Below are positions 1 through 11,318 of a stretch of DNA of 64,000 bases, piece after piece. Numbering within the stretch: position 1 is the stretch's first letter; each line of letters opens with the position of its first letter. Source of the DNA: a virus. Where the stretch lies: positions 1-64,000 of IMG/VR virus record IMGVR_UViG_3300036791_001355. One strand, given 5' to 3'. Below the pieces are notes generated by a model. That model was not told where the DNA came from. It saw only the letters and a list, made by a program, of their open reading frames with translations, and did not search any database. A program made the position numbers and the translations under genes.

Positions 1-806
1 TTAACCTCGGGCATGGCTAAGACAATGACGTCGGTGCCGCCCGCGCCCTTGCCCACCAGGGTGTCGTCATAGGCCCAGACGATGTCGTCGCCGAGGTCGC
101 CCTCGACGTTCTGCACCACGCCCGCCGTGGTGGCCGAGCCTGCGCCGGGACGCTGATAAGACGTCAACTGGACGATGTTCTGCGTCGCCATGCCGCCGAG
201 AATCCGCTGTGGACCAAGGAAGACAAAGCGATGCGGCATGCCGAACTGCATGGTGCGGGTCTTCAGCGCGGCGATCTGCTGCAGCAGGAAGATGGCCATC
301 TGGCCGTTGTCGTAAGTCGAGAAGGTGGCGTTGCCATAGCTGTCCTGCGGCAGCGAGACGGTGGTCGAGCCGGGCGAGTTCAGGATGCCCTCGCCGTTCT
401 GCGGCTGCATGCCGTAGAGCAGACTGTTCCGTAACAGCTGAAAATGCCCCTGCCGCATGGCCAGCCGCTGCGCGTCGACGATGCTGAAACCCCAGTGGGA
501 CGCATTGGCGGTGTCATGGTGGTCATACTCGGCCCGCACCCGCTGCACGTAGGTGGGCAGCGACATGATGGTGGGCACGATGGAGACCGACGGCAGCATG
601 TTATAGGCGGTGGTACCCGATGCCACACGGGTGCGGACATCCAGCCGCCGCAGATAAACATAGAGATCCTCGCTGCCGATCTTGACCCGTGGTTCGTTGC
701 CGGCAAGCACGTCAAACGCGCCCGAGGCCTGCTGGAACTGCACCAGCAGGTCAGGCTCGACGAAGCTGGGATGCACCTGCGTCCAGCTTGGCGCCAGAGT
801 GGCCAT
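1..806 (-). CDS. Major capsid protein, DUF2184 family (partial, cut by window edge)
   Basis: The frame is open from an ATG at 806 to the left edge (268 codons, no stop seen), so the C-terminus lies outside the window. The visible part resembles DUF2184 phage capsid proteins, which form the icosahedral shell; helpful stretches are FVEPDLLVQF near the start and PHRFVFLGPQRI past the middle. It follows a cement-like and a scaffold-like gene, the usual order DUF2213, scaffold, cement, capsid. An AAAGGA ribosome site lies about 10 bases before the ATG, and a GACGCG hairpin lies further upstream (832-849). The assignment rests on remembered family features and gene order; no search was run. Confidence 0.75.
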   Translation of the reverse strand, partial: MATLAPSWTQVHPSFVEPDLLVQFQQASGAFDVLAGNEPRVKIGSEDLYVYLRRLDVRTRVASGTTAYNMLPSVSIVPTIMSLPTYVQRVRAEYDHHDTANASHWGFSIVDAQRLAMRQGHFQLLRNSLLYGMQPQNGEGILNSPGSTTVSLPQDSYGNATFSTYDNGQMAIFLLQQIAALKTRTMQFGMPHRFVFLGPQRILGGMATQNIVQLTSYQRPGAGSATTAGVVQNVEGDLGDDIVWAYDDTLVGKGAGGTDVIVLAMPEV

Positions 807-831
807 TGATTGCGTCCTTTCTCAGGGAAGT

Positions 832-849
832 GCGACGCGAAGTCGCGTC
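832..849. repeat. Intergenic GACGCG hairpin before the capsid gene
   Basis: An inverted repeat of GACGCG and CGCGTC arms with a four-base loop lies in the 43-base gap upstream of the capsid start. The same hairpin occurs before three other head-block genes. It could stabilise or mark mRNA ends or be a REP-like element; no T-run follows, so it is not an obvious terminator. Confidence 0.6.
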
Positions 850-1758
850 TCAGATGATGATGACAGCGGTGGAACCGGCGTTGTTCCAGTTCGCCACCAG
901 ATTCACCCCGTCATAGGTCACGGTCTTGGAGTTGCCGATGGCCACCTGCAGCACCTTCACCGCCAGCGCCCCGCCCGACACCGCCAGCGTCATGGTGCCA
1001 GCGAGCGTGCCCCATTGCGCCGCCGTGCCCGGCAGCAGGTAGGTGAAGTGCTGGTTGTCCGTCCACGTGTTGGCGGTGTGCGTGGTGTTGATCGCCGCCG
1101 TGCCGCCCGTACCGGAATTGGTGGTGCCGGCGATGGTGAACATATCGCCGATGCCGTTGACCGGACTGGCCGCACTCATCACCACCGCCACCTGCCCGCC
1201 ATTGGTGGTGGACCATGTCTGCGAGGTGATGGTGAGCGCACTGCTGGTGGCGGTGTAGGGCACCAGCGCCTGGGCATTGAAGTCCCACGACACCTGTGCC
1301 CCGACCGAGCCACCCTCCAGGCTGGCCAGCGAGGGATCACACTGCACGCAGATGCGCGCCCCGCTGCCGAAGCGATAGAACGGCACCGTCATGCCGGTGG
1401 TGCCGAGCGGTACCTGACTGCCCGGCGTGGTGATCCACGAGAAGGCCTGATTGAACACCGAGAAGCCGATCAGGCCGCCCGCCCCGGTCTGCACCAGAGT
1501 GGTGGCCCGGCCGACGATGGAGCCGAGATTGTCGGCCGGCTGCCCCGGTGTGCCGGCGGGATAGGGGACATATTCGTAGATCCCCACCCCGCCCCACATC
1601 GGCAGCGTCTCGGTGACGCTGAGAATGCCGCCCGCGAGGTCGAAGCGGGCCGCCGGGTCGTCCAGCGCCGTGCCCTGCACGTAGCCTTCCGACTGCACGG
1701 AGAAAGTCCCCGGCGCGGTCGTAACCAGCATCGGGTTGAGGGTGACAAGAGTAGGCAT
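850..1758 (-). CDS. Capsid cement / decoration-like structural protein
   Basis: This 302-residue protein has no membrane segment or catalytic motif. Its N-terminal third (VQSEGYVQGTALDDPAARF, then a GGILSVTETLPMWGG stretch) resembles structural cement proteins (Gp24-like) that sit beside DUF2184 or DUF2190 capsid genes and stabilise the shell. The remainder is rich in Thr, Ser, Gly and Ala and looks like beta structure, perhaps an outer decoration domain. The ATG at 1758 has AGGAAAA upstream. It lies between the scaffold-like gene and the capsid gene, which supports a head role. The exact role is inferred. Confidence 0.65.
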   Translation of the reverse strand: MPTLVTLNPMLVTTAPGTFSVQSEGYVQGTALDDPAARFDLAGGILSVTETLPMWGGVGIYEYVPYPAGTPGQPADNLGSIVGRATTLVQTGAGGLIGFSVFNQAFSWITTPGSQVPLGTTGMTVPFYRFGSGARICVQCDPSLASLEGGSVGAQVSWDFNAQALVPYTATSSALTITSQTWSTTNGGQVAVVMSAASPVNGIGDMFTIAGTTNSGTGGTAAINTTHTANTWTDNQHFTYLLPGTAAQWGTLAGTMTLAVSGGALAVKVLQVAIGNSKTVTYDGVNLVANWNNAGSTAVIII

Positions 1759-1786
1759 CGCCTGTTTTCCTATTCCTTAGAAGGGT

Positions 1787-1804
1787 CGACGCGAAGGCGC
1801 GTCT
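1787..1804. repeat. GACGCG hairpin before the cement-like gene
   Basis: GACGCG and CGCGTC arms surround a short AAGG-type loop, overlapping the stop of the scaffold-like gene and about 29 bases upstream of the cement-like ATG. It belongs to the same family as 832-849. Confidence 0.55.
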
Positions 1805-2898
1805 TAGAAGGGGTTGGGCTGGGTGTTGATGCGCCGCACCCGGAAGCTTGGCATGCGGAACTGGTCGAGCATGGCGCTGACCGGCCCGACGAACTCGGAG
1901 ATGCGCCGCCCGGTACGGTCGGGCTTGATGACCTCGCGCAGCATCGGCTCCGCCCCCGGCTCGACGCGGTAGGCCGCGCTGACCGCGTCCTTGCGGATTT
2001 CCGGCGCGGCAATCTTCAGCGCCGCCACCGGCAGCTGCCTGAGATCGACGCCCTTCCACTTGTCGGAGTAGCGCTGGAAGTGCCGCGCGTTGCGGCGCAC
2101 GTAGGAGAGCAGGCTCTCACCGTGCATCGGCCGTGACACGCGCTCGCCATGAGCCATGGCGGGCTCGCTCCACAGCTGCTGCTCCTCGGCCAGACGCTCG
2201 ATTTCCTCGTCGGTGGCGCCCCGCTCCAGGGCCTCGATGCGGCGCCGCAGGCTGCTGCTGTCGGCCCGGGTGTCGCGGCGAGCATCGCGGCGATCATCGC
2301 GGCGGTCGTCATCGTCGTCCGAGCGCCCTTCGTCGCCACCCTCTTCCTCGTCGTCGTCCTTGCGGTCGGCCGCCAGCGGCGTCGGCTTCTCCTTATCGCT
2401 AGGCGGTTCCTTCTCTTCCTCCTTGTGCCACGGCTCCTCCTTCTCCTCGCCGGCCCATTCCTCGATGTCCTTCTCCTTGTCCTTGCGGCCGGAATCCTTG
2501 AACGGCGCCGCCTGCTTGCCCTTGAAGTTCTCGATGCCGGCGTCGCGGCGGCCCCGGTCCTTGCGGCCCCGGTCCTTCATCGACACGCCCCGGTCGCCCG
2601 CGTCACGGCGGGCATCGCGGCGGTCATCGTCATCGTCGTCTGACCGCGCCTCCTCCTCCTTCTTCTCTTTGTCTTCTCCTTCCTCCTCGGCATCGTCCTT
2701 GCGGTCGTCATCATCGTCATCGCTGCGGGCATCACGGCGGTCATCGTCATCGTCCTGCTTGCCGCCGCCCTGTCCGAACAGCGCGTCCAGACGTCGTCCG
2801 ATGGCCGCGTGGGCATCTTTCAGGGCCTGCAACTCCCTGTCCTTGGTCTCTTTTTCACCAGCGGGTGGGGTCGCCGCCCGCATTCCTTCTCCAGCCAT
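1804..2898 (-). CDS. Charged low-complexity head protein, probable scaffold or internal protein
   Basis: The frame is open further upstream, but the ATG at 2898 is preferred because AGGAGGAG precedes it and the upstream part is translated repeat DNA. The 364-residue protein has an extreme composition: the middle (about residues 35-230) is runs of Asp, Glu, Arg and Lys, with repeated DDDDDRRDARR-type blocks. The last 110 residues are ordinary sequence and resemble a C-terminal region seen near DUF2213 proteins in related phages (LSYVRRNARHFQRYSDKWKG, REVIKPDRTGRRISEFVG). Position between the DUF2213 protein and the capsid suggests a scaffold. That role is inferred; the charged repeats could also bind DNA or vary in length between relatives. 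Confidence 0.6.
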   Translation of the reverse strand: MAGEGMRAATPPAGEKETKDRELQALKDAHAAIGRRLDALFGQGGGKQDDDDDRRDARSDDDDDDRKDDAEEEGEDKEKKEEEARSDDDDDDRRDARRDAGDRGVSMKDRGRKDRGRRDAGIENFKGKQAAPFKDSGRKDKEKDIEEWAGEEKEEPWHKEEEKEPPSDKEKPTPLAADRKDDDEEEGGDEGRSDDDDDRRDDRRDARRDTRADSSSLRRRIEALERGATDEEIERLAEEQQLWSEPAMAHGERVSRPMHGESLLSYVRRNARHFQRYSDKWKGVDLRQLPVAALKIAAPEIRKDAVSAAYRVEPGAEPMLREVIKPDRTGRRISEFVGPVSAMLDQFRMPSFRVRRINTQPNPF

Positions 2899-2914
2899 GA
2901 CGGCTCCTCCTGCT

Positions 2915-2955
2915 AAGACGCGTAGGCGCACCGAAGGTGCGCGACATCGCGTCGC
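2915..2955. repeat. Nested palindromes upstream of the scaffold-like gene
   Basis: An outer GACGCG / CGCGTC pair encloses an inner GCGCACC-GAA-GGTGCGC hairpin. The outer pair is the family found at 832, 1787, 3086 and 9244. The inner one resembles the two ACGCACCG hairpins inside the polyvalent gene. It looks like one element inserted into another. Confidence 0.5.
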
Positions 2956-3056
2956 CCTATGCCCGCGCGTGATGAACCGCCGGGAGGCGGGGCCACTCCC
3001 GGTGTCGGTGGTGTCTCGGTTGCTCGAAATTGCGCAAAAATGCGCAGGGGTTTTGA

Positions 3057-4253
3057 TCAGTCCGGTCGGGAGCGAGACTCCCGGAGACGCGACTTCGCGT
3101 CGACCGAGCGACCTATCGGCCCGATCAGCTGCTCGACCTCGGCCAGCCAGGGCCACGCGAGTGGCCCATTCGCCCTCGGCTCAGGCGCCGAATGGGCCAC
3201 CACGCTGTCAGTTCGCGCCGCTGGGGCGGGCAACTCGATCTCGCCATCGGCCGGCTCGGGATCGCCGATGGCAATGCCGGTAGGCGAGCCGTCCTTGTCC
3301 CACACGCCCAGTTCACAGATGGCGAGGTGATCCAGCAGCGACGGCTCGCCCTCCACCAAGAGATGCTTGCCGCCCGCCAGCTGGCGCGTCTCATTGACGC
3401 TGGGATCACGGAAAATGACCGCCGGGCTGGTCGAGAGCCGGTGGCTGCGCATCACCTCCGCCGCGCGCTGGTCGTAGATCTTGCCGATGCCCCACACTTC
3501 GTCGCCCTCGATGTAGGCAAACACGATGCTGCCGATGACCCGGTTGGTGTACTCCTCGGTGTTCAGTTCGTCGGTGGGCGGGTGCTCGATGATGACCGGC
3601 AGCCCGGCGCAGCGGGCCAGGAACTCGGCGTTGAGATAAATCTCCGGGGGCCGCCAGACATACTCCTCCAACTCGGGCCGGTAGCTCACCCCGGTGCCGG
3701 TGATGCGCAAGGCGAAGAGCCAGATATTCTCGTATTGCTGCGGGCTGCCGAACTCGCCCGAGGCGATGGCGCGGGCGATGTCCAACTCGTTCATGTGCAG
3801 GCGGTCCAGCGCCAGCCGTACGCCGGGATGCAGCGGCTGCGGCGGCGAGCCGGGAGAAGCCCAGACCCAGTCGCTCAACTCGCCGTCGCCGTGGCTGAGA
3901 TCGGGCTCGAACTGCGTCTCGACATGGGCCATGAAGGTGGAATAATCGACGCCCATCAGCATGTTGCGGATGAGCAGGGAGACCGCGCCGTGGGCGGTGG
4001 CGCCCAACTCCTCGGCCACCTCGCGCATGGCCGCCTCGTCGGCCTGCTCGTCGTGCTCGATCTCGCCGCCGGGGAGTTCCCAGGTGTCGCGGTCGCGGTG
4101 GCGCACGAACAGCACGCGGTCGCCGTCGTGGCCCCGGTAGAGGATCAGCAGGCCGGCGCCGTGCAGGATACGGCTGGGCGGGGCTTCATCAGCAGCGAAG
4201 ACTGAATGGGGCTGGGCGTCGTCCAGCCGGATGGCTGGCGAGAGCAGGCGCAT
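3057..4253 (-). CDS. Nudix hydrolase fused to DUF2213 (probable prohead-protease-like) protein
   Basis: 398 residues with two parts. Residues about 30-150 form a Nudix domain with a complete Nudix box at 62-84 (Gly, five residues, Glu, then REVAEELG); such enzymes hydrolyse nucleoside diphosphates linked to another group. Residues about 155-300 match DUF2213, found before capsid genes; His224 (VIIEHPPT) and Ser274 or Ser276 (RLSTSPAV) are candidates for a protease pair by analogy with assemblin-like prohead proteases, which is inference. The C-terminal 60 residues are encoded by palindromic repeat DNA (3066-3210). The ATG at 4253 follows the preceding stop closely, and no strong ribosome site was seen. 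The substrate is unknown. Confidence 0.75.
   Translation of the reverse strand: MRLLSPAIRLDDAQPHSVFAADEAPPSRILHGAGLLILYRGHDGDRVLFVRHRDRDTWELPGGEIEHDEQADEAAMREVAEELGATAHGAVSLLIRNMLMGVDYSTFMAHVETQFEPDLSHGDGELSDWVWASPGSPPQPLHPGVRLALDRLHMNELDIARAIASGEFGSPQQYENIWLFALRITGTGVSYRPELEEYVWRPPEIYLNAEFLARCAGLPVIIEHPPTDELNTEEYTNRVIGSIVFAYIEGDEVWGIGKIYDQRAAEVMRSHRLSTSPAVIFRDPSVNETRQLAGGKHLLVEGEPSLLDHLAICELGVWDKDGSPTGIAIGDPEPADGEIELPAPAARTDSVVAHSAPEPRANGPLAWPWLAEVEQLIGPIGRSVDAKSRLRESRSRPD
3066..3116. repeat. TCGCTC element with a GACGCG hairpin inserted in it
   Basis: The reverse form of the dispersed element (GGGAGCGAGACTCCC and later CGAGCGACC) is split by a GACGCG-ACTT-CGCGTC hairpin at 3086-3101. It encodes the last residues of the Nudix-DUF2213 protein. 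Nesting suggests the hairpin arrived second. Confidence 0.5.
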
Positions 4254-4656: not shown

Positions 4657-7600
4657 TTATCCTACCAATGCCTTGATGTGAGTCCGCGTGCCGTCGTGGT
4701 AGATTTCGTAGACTTCGGTGGAGACCCCATGCGGCAGGATCACTTCCCGCTCGTGGTGGCCGACTTGGCCGGCAATGCCCAGCACCTTCTGCCCCTTCTT
4801 GACGGCAAAGTGCCACCAGACATTCTCGTGCTCCTTGTAGCCGGGTTTCGGGCCGATGGAGGCAGAGGTGAAGCCGGTGCGCATGTAGTGGTAGGTGCCC
4901 ACGCCTTTGCCGAGCGCCTGCCTGATTGCCTTGATCTGGTCGTCGTCCATGTGTTCGCCACGGACCAAGTTGATATCCTGGGTGATCGCCACGTCGGGAT
5001 CACGGAACAGCGCCCGCATGGCATCAATCTTGCCCAAGGCCTCTGGTGTCGCTGACTCATGGCCGCGCTGCACGCCGTTGATTTTTTTGTAACCGCCGCC
5101 GCCGTAGGACTGGATCGCTTCCGCATCCTTGCTGTGGGACACCTTCTGCCAGAACCCTGGCTGGAGTGACGGCACGATGTCGTAGGATTCCTGCGAACTC
5201 GTGCTGGCAGGATTCGCCGCCTCCGCCTCGGTCTTGAGCGCGTAGTGCAGGTCGGGGCTGTCCCTGGCTTGCAGCACCTGGGCGTTGGCGGGCGCCGTCA
5301 GCGAGCCGTGCTTGGCGGTCTTGGGCGCGGCGGCCTTGGCCTTCGCGGCTAGGGTTCCCGGCTTCGGCCCCGCTGGCTTGGGGGCGGGCGCGGCCGGCTT
5401 GGCCGCCGAGGGCGGTGCCTCGCCCTTCAGCGCGGCGATCCACTCCTCGCCGAAGCTCTTGGTGAAAGAGCCGGTCAGCTTGGGGTTATCCAGCACCGCC
5501 TCAATGGCGGTGATCTTCTCTGCGTCTGGCTTATCCGAGGTGGCGGCGGCATAGACCGCCTGCTGGCCCTTGGAACTGGCGTGCGGCTGTGGTCCCAGGA
5601 CCGGCGGCGGCTTGCCCTCGATGTCGGCGATGGCCACCGCCACGGCGTGCTTCTCCGCCGGCTCGGTCATGGTGTTCATCAACTCGCCCAGCGACTTGGT
5701 CGCCGTTGCCTTGGCCTTGGGACCGGCCTCCTTGGCCATGGTGGAAACGAACTTGAGCTTTTCCCCCAGGGACATCTGAGCTTTGACGTAGTTCGGAATC
5801 ATGCCGGCGGCGGTGTCGTCTTCCTGCGCCTTGCTCTGCGGCTTGGTGTCCGCCGGCTTCTTCTCGCCCTTCAGCGCCTCGATCAGCTTGGCGCCGTACT
5901 CCTTGCCCGCCGTCGGCCACGCCTGGGCGTACTGCTCCAGAGTCTTGATCTTCGACGCGAGTGGCGCATCACTGGTAGCGACCTGCAGCATGTTCTTCTG
6001 CACGCTGCTGCCGGGGACCGGCAGCTGCGGTAGTGTGGCCGCCGTGGCCTGCTCGGCCGCCTGGGTCGGGGCGTCGCTGATCGCCGCCAGCAGCTTCTCG
6101 CCGTAGGCCTTGTCCGCCGCATCGGTGGCGTGGGCGATGTCGTGCTTGAGTTGCTTGACCTTGGTCTCCAGCTTCCACTGGCCGAAGGTGGCGGACTCGT
6201 AGAGTTCCTTCTGCGTCGCTCCTTGCGGCTTGGGCACCCCGGACACCGCCAGCAACAGTTGCGCGGCATATTCCTTGTTGCTGGGATCGGTCATCTCGGT
6301 GCCGAGCTTCTTGAGCGCGGCGATCTTTTCCGTCGTGGTGGTCCAGGGATTGACCGCGTAACCAAGCAGATCCTGCTGGCCGTAGCTCTGGTTTAGTGGG
6401 TCCGGCAGTTCCGGCCCGGCGGGTTCGGCTTCCTCGGACGCGGCCTTCGCTGGCTTCTTCTTCTCGCCGGCCGCCATCTCCAGCACGCTTAGCCAATCCT
6501 CGGCGTAGGTCTTGGCGGACGGGTCGACCAGCCCCTGGGCAATGGCATCCTTCAGCCACGCCAGCTGCTGCTCGACGGGCAGATCGCCGCTGACCACGTC
6601 GCTGATTTCGGACTCGCCGTAGGTCTTCTTTTCGGGAGCAGCCTGCGCGACCTCCTTCGGCTTGGCCCCCTGCTGCGCTTCCAGCGCCGCGATCACCGTC
6701 TGGCTGTAGTCCCATGTCGGGCTGGCCTTGTTCAGGGTGCCCTTGGCAACCTGCATATCCACGTAGGTGTTGATCGCGTTGATCTTCCCTTCCACCGTCA
6801 TGCTGGGGTGCTCGGCCAGCCCCTTGATGCTTTTGCCGATGACCGAACCGCCGACCAGCCCGGGCGGGTCCGGTACAACCGGGGCGCCCTTCTCGCCCTT
6901 TAGCTCGGCGAGCTTGCCCTCCACGAACTGCGTGTTGGCTGACCCCAGCGGCTTCTTCAGCAAGCCTTCCAAGTAAGCGACCTTTTTTTCTGCCGACGGC
7001 AGATGGTCGACCTGTTGCGTCACCGCCTTGGCGAAAGTCACGTCGGGACCAGCGCCGAAGATGCCGCCTGCCTCCTTGGCTTCCGGTTCCTCGGGCGGCG
7101 CTTCCGCCTCGGCCGCCATTGCCTCCATCTCGGCTGCGCTCGGCGGCGCCGCCTCGGGCGCACCTCCCTTCTCCTTCTTCTTAGGCTTCCACTTGGTGAA
7201 CGTGGCCTTGCCCAGGCTGCCCGCCCCCAACCCCAGCTGGTTCTCGATGTCGGCCAGCAGCACGTTGGCGTAGTTGGCCCAGGAAGAGGAAGACTTGGTC
7301 GCCGAGTAAGCCTTCACGGCGTCGGCCAGCTGGTTCAGTTCCTGATTGGAAAGAGCCTCGCCCTTCTCCAGCGCCTTCTCGACCACGCCGACGATCTTCT
7401 TGGTCGCCGACGCCGCCCCCAGCGCAGGCGATGACGATGGCGTCACCTTGCCGCCGCCACCACCGCCCGAGGTGAACTGCCCGCCGCCCTCGGCCCCGGC
7501 CGGTACACGCGGATGGTCGGCCTCGCTCCAGGCATCGGCCCGGCGAATGAAGTCCTTGTGCGCCTGCTCCGCCGTCCAGGCGTCCTTCTTGGCCTCGGAC

Positions 7601-9228
7601 AGTCCGGCCCGCTTGGCGATATCGTACTTGCGGGCAATCAGCTTGGCGGCCAGATCGGCCCGCTGCTCCGCCGTGCCCGGCCCCTGGCTCTCCACCAGTT
7701 CGCGGATGGTGTCATCGGGCACCGCCACCACCTTCTTGGCGGACTCGCGCAGCTGCTCCTGGCTCATCGAGCCGTAGATGGCGTGCGCCTGGGTGTTGCT
7801 CGGGCTGCGCAGGCTCTCCCATTCGCCCGCCTCTTTACCGAAGGCGTTGCCCTTGGGACCGCCCTGGGCGCGGAAGATCATCGCCCCGCCCGCGTCCAAG
7901 GTGGTCATGTCGCCGTCAACGAGGCCCTGGTTGTCGTATTCCAGCCCGGCCGCGTCCCAGTTGGCCAGCCACGCATGGGTGGCAAAGTTCTCCTGCGCCG
8001 CCTGCTTCTGCTCGGCGCTGTGGCGGTTGATGTTCTTGACGCCCTCTTTCCACTTGGTGGCGGTGCCGAGCTTGCCGTCGCCGATGTCGATGGGCTCGGC
8101 CGACAGGATCGGCGAGCCCGCCGCCTCGTACAGGCGCGAGGCGAGAAGCTCGTTCTTGGCGTGGGCTAACGACTTGGAATACTTGACATAGTATTTCTGG
8201 CCTTCCGGCGAGGTGAAGCGCCCGCCGGGATTGCTGCCCAGCTGCCCGCCGGTCTTGGTCATGCCCGCCAGCGCCAGTTGCCCGCCCGGCTTCCCGGGAG
8301 CAGCCTGCGCGACCTTCTCCTCCTTGGGCGGGTGGTCGCTCGGAGTCTCGCTCCCGGGCTTGAGAAACTTGGTGACCATCTTGCGGTCAACCGGGGCGTT
8401 GAGGTGGTCCTCCAGTTCCTCGACCGGCGCCAGGGTAACGCTGGAGGCCTCCTCGCCGTGATCCTCGGGCGTGCCGCCCACCCGGCGAGCGAAGTAGTAG
8501 CGGGCGTTGCTGGTGGAGCGCTCGACATCGCCGGCAAAGCCGGTCAGTTCCACCTTCAGCCCGGTTTCCTCGTAGGCCTCCTTGATGGCGGTGGCCCTGA
8601 GCGACAGGCCAGGGTCTTGGGTGCCCTTGGGGAAGGTCGCCTTGTAGCCGCCAAAACCCCGCTTGGGATGCATCACCCAGACGCTGCCGTCGGGCTCCTT
8701 GATGATCACCCCGGCGCCCTGCGCGAAGCCCTCGGGCAGGGGCGGTGGGGGTGGGGCCTCGATCTTGGGGCCGCTGTCGGCCAGCTTCTGCCAGCCACCC
8801 CGGGTCTGCGGCGGTGTCCACGAGGCAAAGGCGACGCCATGCAGAGCCTTGGGCGCGGCACTACCCTTCTTGCCGAAGGTCTGCGACTTCTTGGCAGCCT
8901 TGGGTGCCTCCGGTGCGGCGCCCCCGCCACCAGCGCCTGCGGTGAACTTGCCGCCCTCGTTGCGCGGATGCTCGGCTTCCTTGAAGTCGGAGTCCCCACG
9001 CACCGTCTTCGGTGCGTCTTGCCGCCCCGGCAGCAGGTTGAAGCGCCGGGCCTGGATCAGGTAGTCGATCTGGCGCGAGATGTCGGCCAGCGACTGGGCG
9101 ATATCCTCCAGGCCTGCCTCGTCCCCACGCACCGTCTTCGGTGCGTCCTTGCGCGCGCCATGGCGTACCTGCGGTTCCAGAAAGCGGGCGACGGCGTCAC
9201 GCCATGCCCAGGGAGCGCCGTCGTCCAT
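4657..9228 (-). CDS. Giant polyvalent protein: Nudix, kinase-like, helical repeats, ADP-ribosyltransferase
   Basis: 1,523 residues. In order: an N-terminal segment; a Nudix-like domain about 165-290 whose box (FPKGTQDPGLSL, KEAYEETGL) lacks the usual first Glu; a HipA-like kinase-type domain about 335-545 with Lys349, the loop NWDAAGLEYDNQG (423-435) and LDAGG (444-448); eight or nine degenerate helical repeats of 50-60 residues about 610-1270; a Pro/Ala linker; and an ADP-ribosyltransferase domain about 1350-1523 with Arg1423 (LVRGEH), the FTSAS motif (1453) and Glu1493-x-Glu1495. This fits the polyvalent protein class described in phages and conjugative elements, whose enzymatic parts are thought to be delivered with the DNA to act on the host. 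Its place in the head operon agrees. Targets are unknown. Confidence 0.85.
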   Translation of the reverse strand: MDDGAPWAWRDAVARFLEPQVRHGARKDAPKTVRGDEAGLEDIAQSLADISRQIDYLIQARRFNLLPGRQDAPKTVRGDSDFKEAEHPRNEGGKFTAGAGGGGAAPEAPKAAKKSQTFGKKGSAAPKALHGVAFASWTPPQTRGGWQKLADSGPKIEAPPPPPLPEGFAQGAGVIIKEPDGSVWVMHPKRGFGGYKATFPKGTQDPGLSLRATAIKEAYEETGLKVELTGFAGDVERSTSNARYYFARRVGGTPEDHGEEASSVTLAPVEELEDHLNAPVDRKMVTKFLKPGSETPSDHPPKEEKVAQAAPGKPGGQLALAGMTKTGGQLGSNPGGRFTSPEGQKYYVKYSKSLAHAKNELLASRLYEAAGSPILSAEPIDIGDGKLGTATKWKEGVKNINRHSAEQKQAAQENFATHAWLANWDAAGLEYDNQGLVDGDMTTLDAGGAMIFRAQGGPKGNAFGKEAGEWESLRSPSNTQAHAIYGSMSQEQLRESAKKVVAVPDDTIRELVESQGPGTAEQRADLAAKLIARKYDIAKRAGLSEAKKDAWTAEQAHKDFIRRADAWSEADHPRVPAGAEGGGQFTSGGGGGGKVTPSSSPALGAASATKKIVGVVEKALEKGEALSNQELNQLADAVKAYSATKSSSSWANYANVLLADIENQLGLGAGSLGKATFTKWKPKKKEKGGAPEAAPPSAAEMEAMAAEAEAPPEEPEAKEAGGIFGAGPDVTFAKAVTQQVDHLPSAEKKVAYLEGLLKKPLGSANTQFVEGKLAELKGEKGAPVVPDPPGLVGGSVIGKSIKGLAEHPSMTVEGKINAINTYVDMQVAKGTLNKASPTWDYSQTVIAALEAQQGAKPKEVAQAAPEKKTYGESEISDVVSGDLPVEQQLAWLKDAIAQGLVDPSAKTYAEDWLSVLEMAAGEKKKPAKAASEEAEPAGPELPDPLNQSYGQQDLLGYAVNPWTTTTEKIAALKKLGTEMTDPSNKEYAAQLLLAVSGVPKPQGATQKELYESATFGQWKLETKVKQLKHDIAHATDAADKAYGEKLLAAISDAPTQAAEQATAATLPQLPVPGSSVQKNMLQVATSDAPLASKIKTLEQYAQAWPTAGKEYGAKLIEALKGEKKPADTKPQSKAQEDDTAAGMIPNYVKAQMSLGEKLKFVSTMAKEAGPKAKATATKSLGELMNTMTEPAEKHAVAVAIADIEGKPPPVLGPQPHASSKGQQAVYAAATSDKPDAEKITAIEAVLDNPKLTGSFTKSFGEEWIAALKGEAPPSAAKPAAPAPKPAGPKPGTLAAKAKAAAPKTAKHGSLTAPANAQVLQARDSPDLHYALKTEAEAANPASTSSQESYDIVPSLQPGFWQKVSHSKDAEAIQSYGGGGYKKINGVQRGHESATPEALGKIDAMRALFRDPDVAITQDINLVRGEHMDDDQIKAIRQALGKGVGTYHYMRTGFTSASIGPKPGYKEHENVWWHFAVKKGQKVLGIAGQVGHHEREVILPHGVSTEVYEIYHDGTRTHIKALVG
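8334..8356. repeat. TCGCTC dispersed element, in frame inside the polyvalent gene
   Basis: A 23-base copy of the dispersed element lies in the linker between the Nudix and kinase-like domains and is translated as part of PGSETPSDHPP. It marks a tolerated insertion in an unstructured linker. Confidence 0.55.
8998..9017. repeat. ACGCACCG hairpin, copy 1, inside the polyvalent gene
   Basis: Perfect inverted repeat ACGCACCG-TCTT-CGGTGCGT in coding sequence. The surrounding 27 bases are identical to copy 2, and both are translated as DAPKTVRGD. Confidence 0.65.
9127..9146. repeat. ACGCACCG hairpin, copy 2, inside the polyvalent gene
   Basis: Second copy, 129 bases from copy 1 and in the same reading frame, so the protein carries DAPKTVRGD at residues 28-36 and 71-79. 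Confidence 0.65.
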
Positions 9229-9338: not shown

Positions 9339-9354
9339 ACACATGGGGGACGCC

Positions 9355-9690
9355 ATGAACGACCATCCTGACCTGTTCGCCCTGTTCGACCTGCCCGCCG
9401 GCATCGCCCGCCGCGACGAAGGCATGGCGCGGGTTGCCGACCACAACCCGAACTGGACTGCCGAGGCGCTGCGCATCATCGCCACCCTGCCGCGCGGCTG
9501 GACCGGCCTGCCGGAAGACTGGCGCCCGATGGTCGAGGCCCGCATCGGCCCGCCCACCAGTTCCTTTGCCTATGGCCCGCTGACCAAGACCGCCAGACAG
9601 ATCGGCCTCGTCCGCCTGACCGGGCGCCGCCTGCCGATGCGCCGCCGCACCTCCAATGGCCGCATGACCGACGAATACGAGCGCCTCTAG
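9355..9690 (+). CDS. Hypothetical protein in a plus-strand cassette
   Basis: 111 residues, unknown function. An ATG at 9343 is in frame, but 9355 has GGGGGA at good spacing. The N-terminal half is acidic and the C-terminal half very basic (RRLPMRRRTSNGRM), suggesting nucleic-acid contact. It is transcribed against the flanking head genes, has its own promoter, and its stop overlaps the stop of the gpF-like gene. Confidence 0.65.
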   Translation: MNDHPDLFALFDLPAGIARRDEGMARVADHNPNWTAEALRIIATLPRGWTGLPEDWRPMVEARIGPPTSSFAYGPLTKTARQIGLVRLTGRRLPMRRRTSNGRMTDEYERL

Positions 9691-11318
9691 GCCTTGGCGC
9701 GTACCAGGGTCAGGGCGTCGTTGCCCGCCGCCGTCAGCATGCTCTCGGGCAACTCACGCAGGTGATAGAGGTAGGTATAATAACACCTACAGTTGTGCGT
9801 AACGATTCCATTGGCTATATACCAGCCGCTACTGGTCTGTAGATTGAACACATGCCCCGTCCAGCGCCGCTGATCGACCTTGATGATGCGCGTCACGCGT
9901 ACGAAGCGGGAGAGAGCATTCTCTCGCTGTCCCGTCGGCTGGGAGCGTCGTGCCGATATCTCACTTACAGCCTGGAACAGGCTGGCGTCACGCTCCGCAA
10001 CGGCAGTGAGGCCAGCGTATTGCGGATGGCCCGCGCAGGTGCCGAGGGCCGCGCCAAGCTGATCGCCGCCGCCCATGCCGCCCGTCGCGGCAGTAAGGCG
10101 TCCGAAGTCGAACTGATCCGCCGCGCCAGCCGCAAGCCCCGCCTGCACGGGTTCGGTGAAGACCACGTGCTCACCGCGCTGCATGCCGTCGGCATTGCCG
10201 CCGAAGCGCAGCGGCCGGTCGGTCCATACAACGTCGATATCGCTTTCGCTGCCGTCGCCGTGGAACTGCTTACGCTGCCCACCGCGCACCTCCGTGACCC
10301 CAAGTTCGAACAGCGCGCCGAATATTTGCGCAATGTTGGTTACTGTGTGGTCTTGGTGACTTTCAGATGGAGATACCCGGATGATCTCACCGGCAACCTC
10401 GATGAGGTCATCGCCTTCTTGCAAGGCGCCAATAGCGACCCAGCCGTCAGGCGTCAGGACTGGATGATTCGGTGTGGCGCGCAGCGTTTTGCCCGTGGCC
10501 GTAATCACCTTGGTCAGCTGACCGCTGTACCAACGCCGGTACGCTACTTCCACACCGTCAGCGAATGGAATCTGCGTCGTGCCGGGTAAGCAGTACACTT
10601 CCTCGCCCGGCTGCGTGATCTGGTCGGTGTAGCCGGCCCGCCCGGCCTTCATCAGGCGCTGCTGCAAGGCCCAGTTGCCCCGGATGGCATAGACCCAGTC
10701 GGCGCCCTTGTAGCGGGCGTCGCGGTCGCGGTGATCGGGCCGGAAATCGTAGTGCACCTGCCTGAAGTGACTGCGCCACAGGGCGGCGATGGCGCCGCCG
10801 TCGGTGGCCAGGATGCTGTTGATCGCCGACACCAGCTTGTGGCCCTGGTCGATCAGCACCCGCCGCTCGCGGAAACTCTGCCCGGCCAGTTCCTTGCGCA
10901 CGTCGTTCTTGGTCTCGACCTTGTCGACCTTGGCGCCGCCGACCGGGATCGAGGTGGCCCAGCCCTGAAAGCGCCGCAGCGTGTCGGCGATGGTCTGCTG
11001 GCGGTTCAGCTTGATGAGGTTGGCCGAGGCCAGGATGCGCCGGTCTAGCTCGGCCCGCAGCTTCGGCTTGACCAGTTCCAGGGTGAAGCGAGAGACGCCC
11101 GGGTGGTGGCGCAGGATCAGGCCCCGGTTGATCAGCCGCTCATAGGTGCCCGCCAACACCCGGCGCAGCTGCTCGTCCAGCACCGCCTCGGAGACCATCT
11201 GCTCCAGCGCCGACTGGCGGATGGTCTCGACCCAGTATTGCAACCGCTCCTCGCTGTCGTAGCCGTGCTCGGCGAGATCGGCGACGGCGGCCGAGACGGT
11301 TTCGAAGAACGTCGCCAT
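9687..11318 (-). CDS. gpF-like head morphogenesis protein interrupted by an intein
   Basis: 543 codons. Residues 1-242 plus 510-543 form a 276-residue protein of the Mu gpF-like head morphogenesis / minor head family, which acts at the portal vertex; the conserved C-terminal element CRCYYTYLYHLREL is present. Between Tyr242 and Cys510 lies a 267-residue intein starting with Cys243 and ending His508-Asn509, so splicing would rebuild EEVY-CRCYY. The ATG at 11318 lies just beyond the stop of the 80-residue gene upstream. Gene order (portal, gpF-like, polyvalent, DUF2213) is typical. The protein needs splicing to restore its conserved end. Confidence 0.88.
   Translation of the reverse strand: MATFFETVSAAVADLAEHGYDSEERLQYWVETIRQSALEQMVSEAVLDEQLRRVLAGTYERLINRGLILRHHPGVSRFTLELVKPKLRAELDRRILASANLIKLNRQQTIADTLRRFQGWATSIPVGGAKVDKVETKNDVRKELAGQSFRERRVLIDQGHKLVSAINSILATDGGAIAALWRSHFRQVHYDFRPDHRDRDARYKGADWVYAIRGNWALQQRLMKAGRAGYTDQITQPGEEVYCLPGTTQIPFADGVEVAYRRWYSGQLTKVITATGKTLRATPNHPVLTPDGWVAIGALQEGDDLIEVAGEIIRVSPSESHQDHTVTNIAQIFGALFELGVTEVRGGQRKQFHGDGSESDIDVVWTDRPLRFGGNADGMQRGEHVVFTEPVQAGLAAGAADQFDFGRLTAATGGMGGGDQLGAALGTCAGHPQYAGLTAVAERDASLFQAVSEISARRSQPTGQRENALSRFVRVTRIIKVDQRRWTGHVFNLQTSSGWYIANGIVTHNCRCYYTYLYHLRELPESMLTAAGNDALTLVRAKA
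9792..10592 (-). mobile_element. Intein (267 residues) without an in-frame endonuclease
   Basis: Splicing features are complete: Cys1 (CLPGTTQI), the block B TxxH as Thr282-Pro-Asn-His285, the C-terminal block VFNLQTSSGWYIANGIVTHN, penultimate His, terminal Asn and Cys at +1 of the extein. Residues between the blocks (about 313-470) contain no LAGLIDADG or HNH motif. Instead the opposite strand encodes a free-standing EDxHD endonuclease covering residues 244-489. The insertion point lies in the most conserved part of the host protein, as is usual for inteins. Confidence 0.93.
9852..10589 (+). CDS. EDxHD / Vsr-like homing endonuclease encoded antisense within the intein
   Basis: 245 residues. 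The N-terminal half holds a helix-turn-helix-like region (AYEAGESILSLSRRLG, then EQAGVTLRNGSEAS). The C-terminal half matches the EDxHD homing-endonuclease family, relatives of Vsr and I-Bth0305I: Glu103, then QRPVGPYNVDIAFAAVAVEL with Asp129 and Glu138, then His146 and Asp149, and RAEYLRNVGYCVVLV. These enzymes cut DNA to spread their host element. The TAA stop is at 10587-10589 and the intein Cys1 codon at 10590-10592, so the gene lies wholly within the intein. Each codon is the exact reverse complement of an intein codon. No strong ribosome site precedes the ATG; an upstream stop at 9840 limits other starts. Confidence 0.85.
   Translation: MPRPAPLIDLDDARHAYEAGESILSLSRRLGASCRYLTYSLEQAGVTLRNGSEASVLRMARAGAEGRAKLIAAAHAARRGSKASEVELIRRASRKPRLHGFGEDHVLTALHAVGIAAEAQRPVGPYNVDIAFAAVAVELLTLPTAHLRDPKFEQRAEYLRNVGYCVVLVTFRWRYPDDLTGNLDEVIAFLQGANSDPAVRRQDWMIRCGAQRFARGRNHLGQLTAVPTPVRYFHTVSEWNLRRAG

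Follow-up and report, generated by a model that had tools for sequence, protein, structure and literature searches.

How can one segment of a phage head gene hold two long coding frames on opposite strands, and do both of them encode functional proteins? The question is raised by the window, the whole stretch of 64,000 nucleotides analyzed here (positions 1 to 64,000 of the 75,505-base IMG/VR virus record IMGVR_UViG_3300036791_001355), in which the original prediction, made from the sequence alone, placed an intein in a gpF-like head protein and a complete EDxHD homing endonuclease on its opposite strand, in exact codon register. Both the predicted coordinates and the register were borne out: a single uninterrupted open reading frame (ORF) on the minus strand (11318-9687) encodes the head protein with the intein, and a plus-strand ORF (9852-10589) encodes the putative homing endonuclease (HEN) of 245 amino acids. 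Codons of both ORFs begin at positions divisible by 3, so that plus- and minus-strand codons pair as exact reverse complements and the numbers of the paired HEN and intein residues add up to 248. The HEN start codon ATG (9852-9854) is the complement of CAT, which encodes the conserved intein residue His247 in block F, and the stop codon TAA (10587-10589) pairs with intein Leu2 (TTA), placing it beside the first intein codon, as predicted. One pairing had to be corrected: QFHGDGSESDIDVV (intein residues 109-122) lies opposite YNVDIAFAAVAVEL (HEN residues 126-139) rather than opposite GPYNVDIAF. Outside the two overlapping frames, a minus-strand ORF of 1,523 amino acids with a Nudix-like stretch (4657-9228) adjoins the head gene, and a plus-strand ORF of 115 amino acids (9343-9690), located upstream of the endonuclease, converges on the head gene; a PHROG search with the latter yielded no match.

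The minus-strand ORF consists of an N-extein (residues 1-242; 10593-11318), the intein (267 amino acids; 9792-10592) and a C-extein (CRCYYTYLY...; 9690-9791), followed by a stop codon (9687-9689). The N-extein belongs to a MuF/gpF-like phage head protein, as judged from a match to phrog_324 (head morphogenesis; 2.8e-12) and an end-to-end alignment with the intein-less gp3 of Klebsiella phage Chronis; the C-extein is delimited by the ORF and by the same empty-site alignment. Overall, the head-protein identity is based on PHROG matches for the window copy, which did not reach Phage_Mu_F, and on a Phage_Mu_F match in several relatives. PHROG 15127 ('head protein') matched the intein region, including inteins in UDG-type or other hosts, and since it does so across differing host genes, this profile probably describes the intein and not a head protein.

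All intein residues named in the original prediction (Cys243, T282xxH285, His508-Asn509 and Cys510 of the ORF) are present, within Cys1, block B TPNH (intein residues 40-43; 10464-10475, minus strand), block F GHVFNLQ (246-252), block G VTHN and the Cys that follows it. The window intein scored 37.2 bits against Pfam Intein_splicing (cut-off 35.8), a profile matched by 73/73 inteins tested. Across the aligned family, C1, T40, H43 and N267 are invariant and the splicing blocks are near-invariant; the +1 residue is Cys in nearly all loci, and the insertion point is mostly a conserved CxC motif of the head gene. Structure models were built on alignments without rows from annotated phage records. 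In the intein model, the Hint halves mostly reached pLDDT values of 94-98 and much of the linker only 42-55, and the best matches in a comparison with PDB structures were inteins. Two more familiar arrangements were considered and rejected, namely, a LAGLIDADG or HNH endonuclease read in frame within the linker, for which there was no Pfam match in 73 members, and a fractured gene with a split intein, given that head protein and intein form a single ORF. The minus strand encodes an intein, to judge from these features, and the precursor would be expected to splice. In one relative (L281:2174-3133), the intein ORF ends early within the linker, which might reflect a broken copy or an assembly error.

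When searched as a single sequence, the plus-strand ORF gave no PDB match and only a weak helix-turn-helix (HTH) match, and a family alignment was needed. A profile of 7 HEN rows matched 3R3P (I-Bth0305I) at 8.5e-6, and a profile of 84 rows searched against PDB matched 3HRL at 1.9e-7, 3R3P at 2.4e-6 and the Vsr-type mismatch endonuclease 1CW0 at 0.28. Pfam MTES_1575 was detected in 63 of the 84 members and DUF559 in 22, along with many HTH families. The HEN model (mean pLDDT 95.4, pTM 0.80) consists of an HTH, a long helix, a nuclease core and a C-terminal hairpin; its top PDB match by Foldseek was 3R3P (probability 1.00, TM 0.68 by target, with a modest E of 2.4e-3), followed by 3HRL. In the window, the HTH spans HEN residues 10-50 (9879-10001, plus strand; helices 10-18, 23-30 and 34-43; HTH_58 at 0.0027 in this copy), the core residues about 101-195 (10152-10436; E103, Q120, Y126-N127-x-D129, VAVE138, R155 and G163), and the beta hairpin residues 204-238 (10461-10565; pLDDT about 97), with a conserved [VM]IR motif encoded by the complementary strand of intein block B. 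The expected relationship to I-Bth0305I was thus recovered by both profile and fold searches. The EDxHD assignment held in part: the conserved set comprises E103 (132/135), Y126, N127, D129 (135/135), E138 (135/135) and R155, so that E and D are kept, but His occupies the aligned position in only 69/135 HENs and the final D is variable; H146, highlighted in the original prediction, is present in the window copy but not conserved across the family. Because the strict signature is partly conserved, 'Vsr-like/MTES_1575 nuclease closest to I-Bth0305I' is the safer name. No free-standing HEN relative was found at E below 1 in 50,697 phage records, among the matches listed, and the identity of the HEN therefore rests on remote homology. 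The plus-strand protein is likely the homing endonuclease of a mobile intein unit, which would be produced in the cell and would cut the empty site.

The window by itself proves little, because in this GC-rich sequence the probability of an open antisense frame, estimated from extein codon usage, is about 0.33; the significance comes from the homologs. Searching with the plus-strand ORF by tblastn, we matched 115 phage records; each of the matches listed is overlain by a gene for a head, structural or hypothetical protein, which is on the opposite strand in all of the first six records inspected. Scans of viral contigs yielded nothing with a single protein as query and hundreds of loci with alignments of the HEN, the whole intein or the splicing domain only; a scan of bacterial genomes added 14 loci, in records whose titles include Rhabdochlamydiaceae, Bavariicoccus, Massilioclostridium, Chloroflexi, Actinomycetota, Gammaproteobacteria, Peregrinibacteria and others. 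With the best 80 matches taken per scan, which under-samples diverged or HEN-less inteins, the census comprised 327 complete inteins, 239 of them distinct, in 216 clusters below 80% amino acid identity, with an intein GC content of 33-70%. More than 200 distinct relatives, from phages of very different bacteria, Gordonia phages among them, carry the same predicted two-strand design. In the annotated phage records listed, the locus is named a head, structural or hypothetical protein and, once, an intein; in Salmonella phage PK1 (L188:1411-2220), the antisense frame has a CDS entry of its own, for a hypothetical protein (XRA40086.1).

The possibility, raised along with the original prediction, that homologous inteins routinely break the antisense frame was not borne out. 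In 198/198 loci in which both frames were detected, they run on opposite strands, overlap and keep a common codon register, and the antisense frame is intact in 146/147 complete inteins found with a 73-residue splicing-domain query. Not a single antisense stop codon occurs among the 50,438 codons (9,321 Leu or Ser) of the intein bodies in the 216 clusters. In a subset of 135 clusters, the antisense stop rate was 1.5% and 1.3% in exteins and 3.1% in the first 35 intein codons, the latter because the HEN stop falls there, opposite intein codons 2-32 in 175/186 loci. Below 45% GC, Leu/Ser codons that create antisense stops make up 31% in exteins versus 0/757 in the intein body. The chance of an open frame falls to 6e-16 per locus in low-GC homologs, and multiplying over 68 loci, treated as independent, gives about 1e-257. 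A natural control is provided by a HEN-less mini-intein of 172 amino acids at a similar site (L301:2501-3016), in which 9 of the 172 codons are antisense stops; the head-gene ORF that carries it (434-3436) holds two inteins, the other being a large one upstream. Two-strand coding is nearly certain, or as well established as sequence evidence can make it.

To determine which strand is under selection, we classed the substitutions in 29 close pairs from 11 groups by their effect on each protein, as silent in the intein frame and changing the HEN (SN), or the reverse (NS). The SN/NS ratio was 3.62 in exteins (95% interval, 3.08-4.48) and 8.09 in intein codons outside the HEN; within the overlap, it was 1.28 in the N-terminal and 1.33 in the C-terminal splicing part, and 0.42 (0.29-0.52) in the intein linker, where NS exceeded SN in 11/11 groups. 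The pattern is of the head-protein type in exteins and of the endonuclease type in the linker. Thus, purifying selection acts on both frames and not, as the alternative to the original prediction would have it, on the intein alone. At the level of single residues, the plus strand drives E103 (GAA/GAG, 64/68), G20, R49, A74 and A92, because the HEN third positions are free there, and intein block B drives the HEN residues opposite to it. The suspicion that conservation on one strand might mirror the other was therefore correct for HEN MIRC (205-208), which mirrors block B, but not for the intein FHGD (110-113), located exactly opposite HEN VAVE (135-138; 10254-10265). There, both strands are fixed and the synonymous positions of VAVE are frozen (A136, GCC in 131/135; E138, GAA in 122/135, in contrast to E103), and the HEN-less L301 mini-intein retains DFHGDG, so the motif likely serves the intein as well and FHGD is no mere mirror of VAVE.

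The codon usage around the HEN start points in the same direction. Of 104 testable clusters, 85 use CAT for the block F His, versus 39.6 expected from the extein usage of the same loci (P = 1.7e-28), whereas the block B His is mostly CAC; CTC encodes the block F Leu in 76/113, versus 29% in exteins. A Shine-Dalgarno core precedes the HEN ATG in 55/92 cases, compared with 3.9% of 337 control antisense ATGs, as exemplified by Aaphi23 (TTTGGAGGTTATAAATATG). From these biases, we infer that the conserved GHVYNLxT of the intein doubles as the ribosome site and start codon of the HEN. The window copy (TAGATTGAACACATG) keeps the ATG but lacks the Shine-Dalgarno sequence of most relatives: within 9840-9854, a rare CTA codon at the block F Leu creates an in-frame TAG just upstream and removes the ribosome site. 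A search for a sigma-70-like promoter near the window HEN found none, and this copy may therefore be poorly expressed. Across the family, sigma-70-like sites are present upstream of the HEN in 26%, versus 9% on the other strand there and 5% in exteins, which is a weak hint of a promoter.

The intein also behaves as expected for a self-contained homing unit, although homing itself is inferred. An empty allele exists in Klebsiella phage Chronis, whose intein-less gene aligns across the junction (GEEVY|CRCY in the window, GEEVF|CRCY in Chronis), and in several pairs the inteins are far more similar than the exteins: 98.9% intein versus 67% extein identity in one pair (L067/L070), 97.5% versus 79% in another (L075/L085), and 92% versus 73% between Snoke and ZCSE7. 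The unit with its antisense endonuclease is also found in genes for UDG (L019, L129) and RtcB (L149), inserted at the conserved motifs CxPP and NCHHNYVE, in a putative phage protease gene (L078; weak XkdF match) and in one further host gene (L116). The element thus transfers independently of its host gene.

Taken together, the data are best explained, with a probability that we put at about 0.88, by a mobile intein in a MuF-type phage head gene, with a Vsr-like homing endonuclease encoded on the complement of its splicing domain. The minus strand would produce the head protein with a self-excising splicing domain, and the plus strand, codon for codon, an HTH fused to a Vsr-like (MTES_1575/EDxHD-class) endonuclease. 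The endonuclease would start at the complement of the block F His and end just inside the first intein codons, so that a single mobile stretch of DNA carries both activities. On meeting an intein-less allele in the same cell, the endonuclease would cleave it at the empty site, and the unit would be copied into the break during repair; homing of this kind presumably drives the spread of the unit. Since each base of the overlap serves both proteins, the endonuclease could not suffer a frameshift, or most kinds of deletion, without loss of the head protein too, and this shared fate should make it decay more slowly than homing endonucleases ordinarily do.

Three other explanations were weighed against this one. 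The plus-strand ORF could be a by-product, a GC-rich gene that reads open backwards and whose relatives mirror conserved intein codons, in line with the open-frame chance in the window alone and with the MIRC motif, which does mirror block B. Low-GC homologs, with their minute per-locus chances, and the linker substitutions, which track the plus strand, have already refuted this explanation; in addition, antisense stops are absent from the body and present at the HEN end, as well as in the HEN-less L301, the codons of the start and ribosome site are biased, and the plus-strand profiles match nucleases of known structure. It is also very improbable that the endonuclease alone is functional and that the minus strand, albeit open, no longer splices: the freely varying linker (SN/NS 0.42) and its low model confidence would fit, but the near-invariant splicing blocks, the SN/NS ratio (8.09 in intein codons that the HEN does not cover, and still above 1 where it overlaps the splicing domain), the frozen synonymous sites of the HEN at FHGD and the insertion mostly at the conserved CxC motif of a head gene all speak against it.

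A role of the plus-strand protein as a DNA-binding nuclease other than in homing, that is, in phage exclusion, Vsr-like mismatch trimming or antisense regulation of the head gene, is somewhat less remote, yet still unlikely. The EDxHD histidine is not strictly kept and antisense transcription would run across a late gene, both of which are compatible with such a role; however, the HEN is wholly contained in the intein and ends at its boundary, moves with it between phages and between host genes, has an empty site in Chronis and has a homing endonuclease as its closest solved relative. For the broader proposition that the units described here represent an old, worldwide and undescribed class of inteins, with splicing domain and HEN on complementary strands, GHVYNL as both ribosome site and start, and protection from frameshifts by a needed head gene, we consider the odds to be even.

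Homing endonucleases usually decay after fixation of the element, and a frameshift-proof HEN gene would be a direct test of whether coding overlap stops this cycle. The question of coding by complementary strands has reportedly been raised for tRNA synthetases in the form of the Rodin-Ohno idea. The present family would provide hundreds of natural examples of two folds written on complementary strands and, if the two-strand interpretation is true, would rank with the best documented instances in nature of a gene whose two strands each specify a folded protein.

The unit resembles inteins with in-frame LAGLIDADG or HNH endonucleases in combining a self-splicing Hint domain and an endonuclease into one mobile unit at a conserved host-gene site, but in the present case the endonuclease is read from the opposite strand, with codons that it shares with the splicing domain. 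In the 'fractured genes' said to have been described by Dassa in 2009, the two halves of a split intein flank an independent endonuclease gene, whereas here the intein ORF is uninterrupted and the endonuclease is its complement. With Vsr-like EDxHD homing endonucleases (I-Bth0305I, 3R3P), the HEN shares the nuclease fold, core residues and association with inteins in phages; it differs in that H and the final D are not strictly kept in the family. Full-text literature searches showed no intein with an antisense endonuclease among the papers listed; an earlier mention is possible, in that a 2025 preprint on non-canonical actinophage inteins may touch on the subject and Gordonia phages fall within its scope. 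In the ShiLan element (PMC11855218), an HNH homing endonuclease is likewise concealed in an alternate frame of an in-frame insertion, there in a phage methylase gene, with a similarly puzzling route of translation, but that frame is on the same strand, and the element lacks both a splicing domain and a detectable ribosome site. In nuclear group I introns, antisense genes for homing endonucleases such as I-DsqI (PMC9548176) are also expressed from the strand opposite the host gene; the I-DsqI gene, however, is placed within the P9.2 peripheral loop of the intron RNA, and therefore no second protein-coding frame overlaps it. Antisense overlapping genes of bacteria, such as asa (PMC6294744), also yield two proteins from complementary strands, but are reportedly single known pairs in one species, as opposed to two products that are both recognizable folded families with conservation across 216 clusters. 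The component parts of the unit are thus all of known kinds and, within the scope of the literature searches above, their combination appears to be new.
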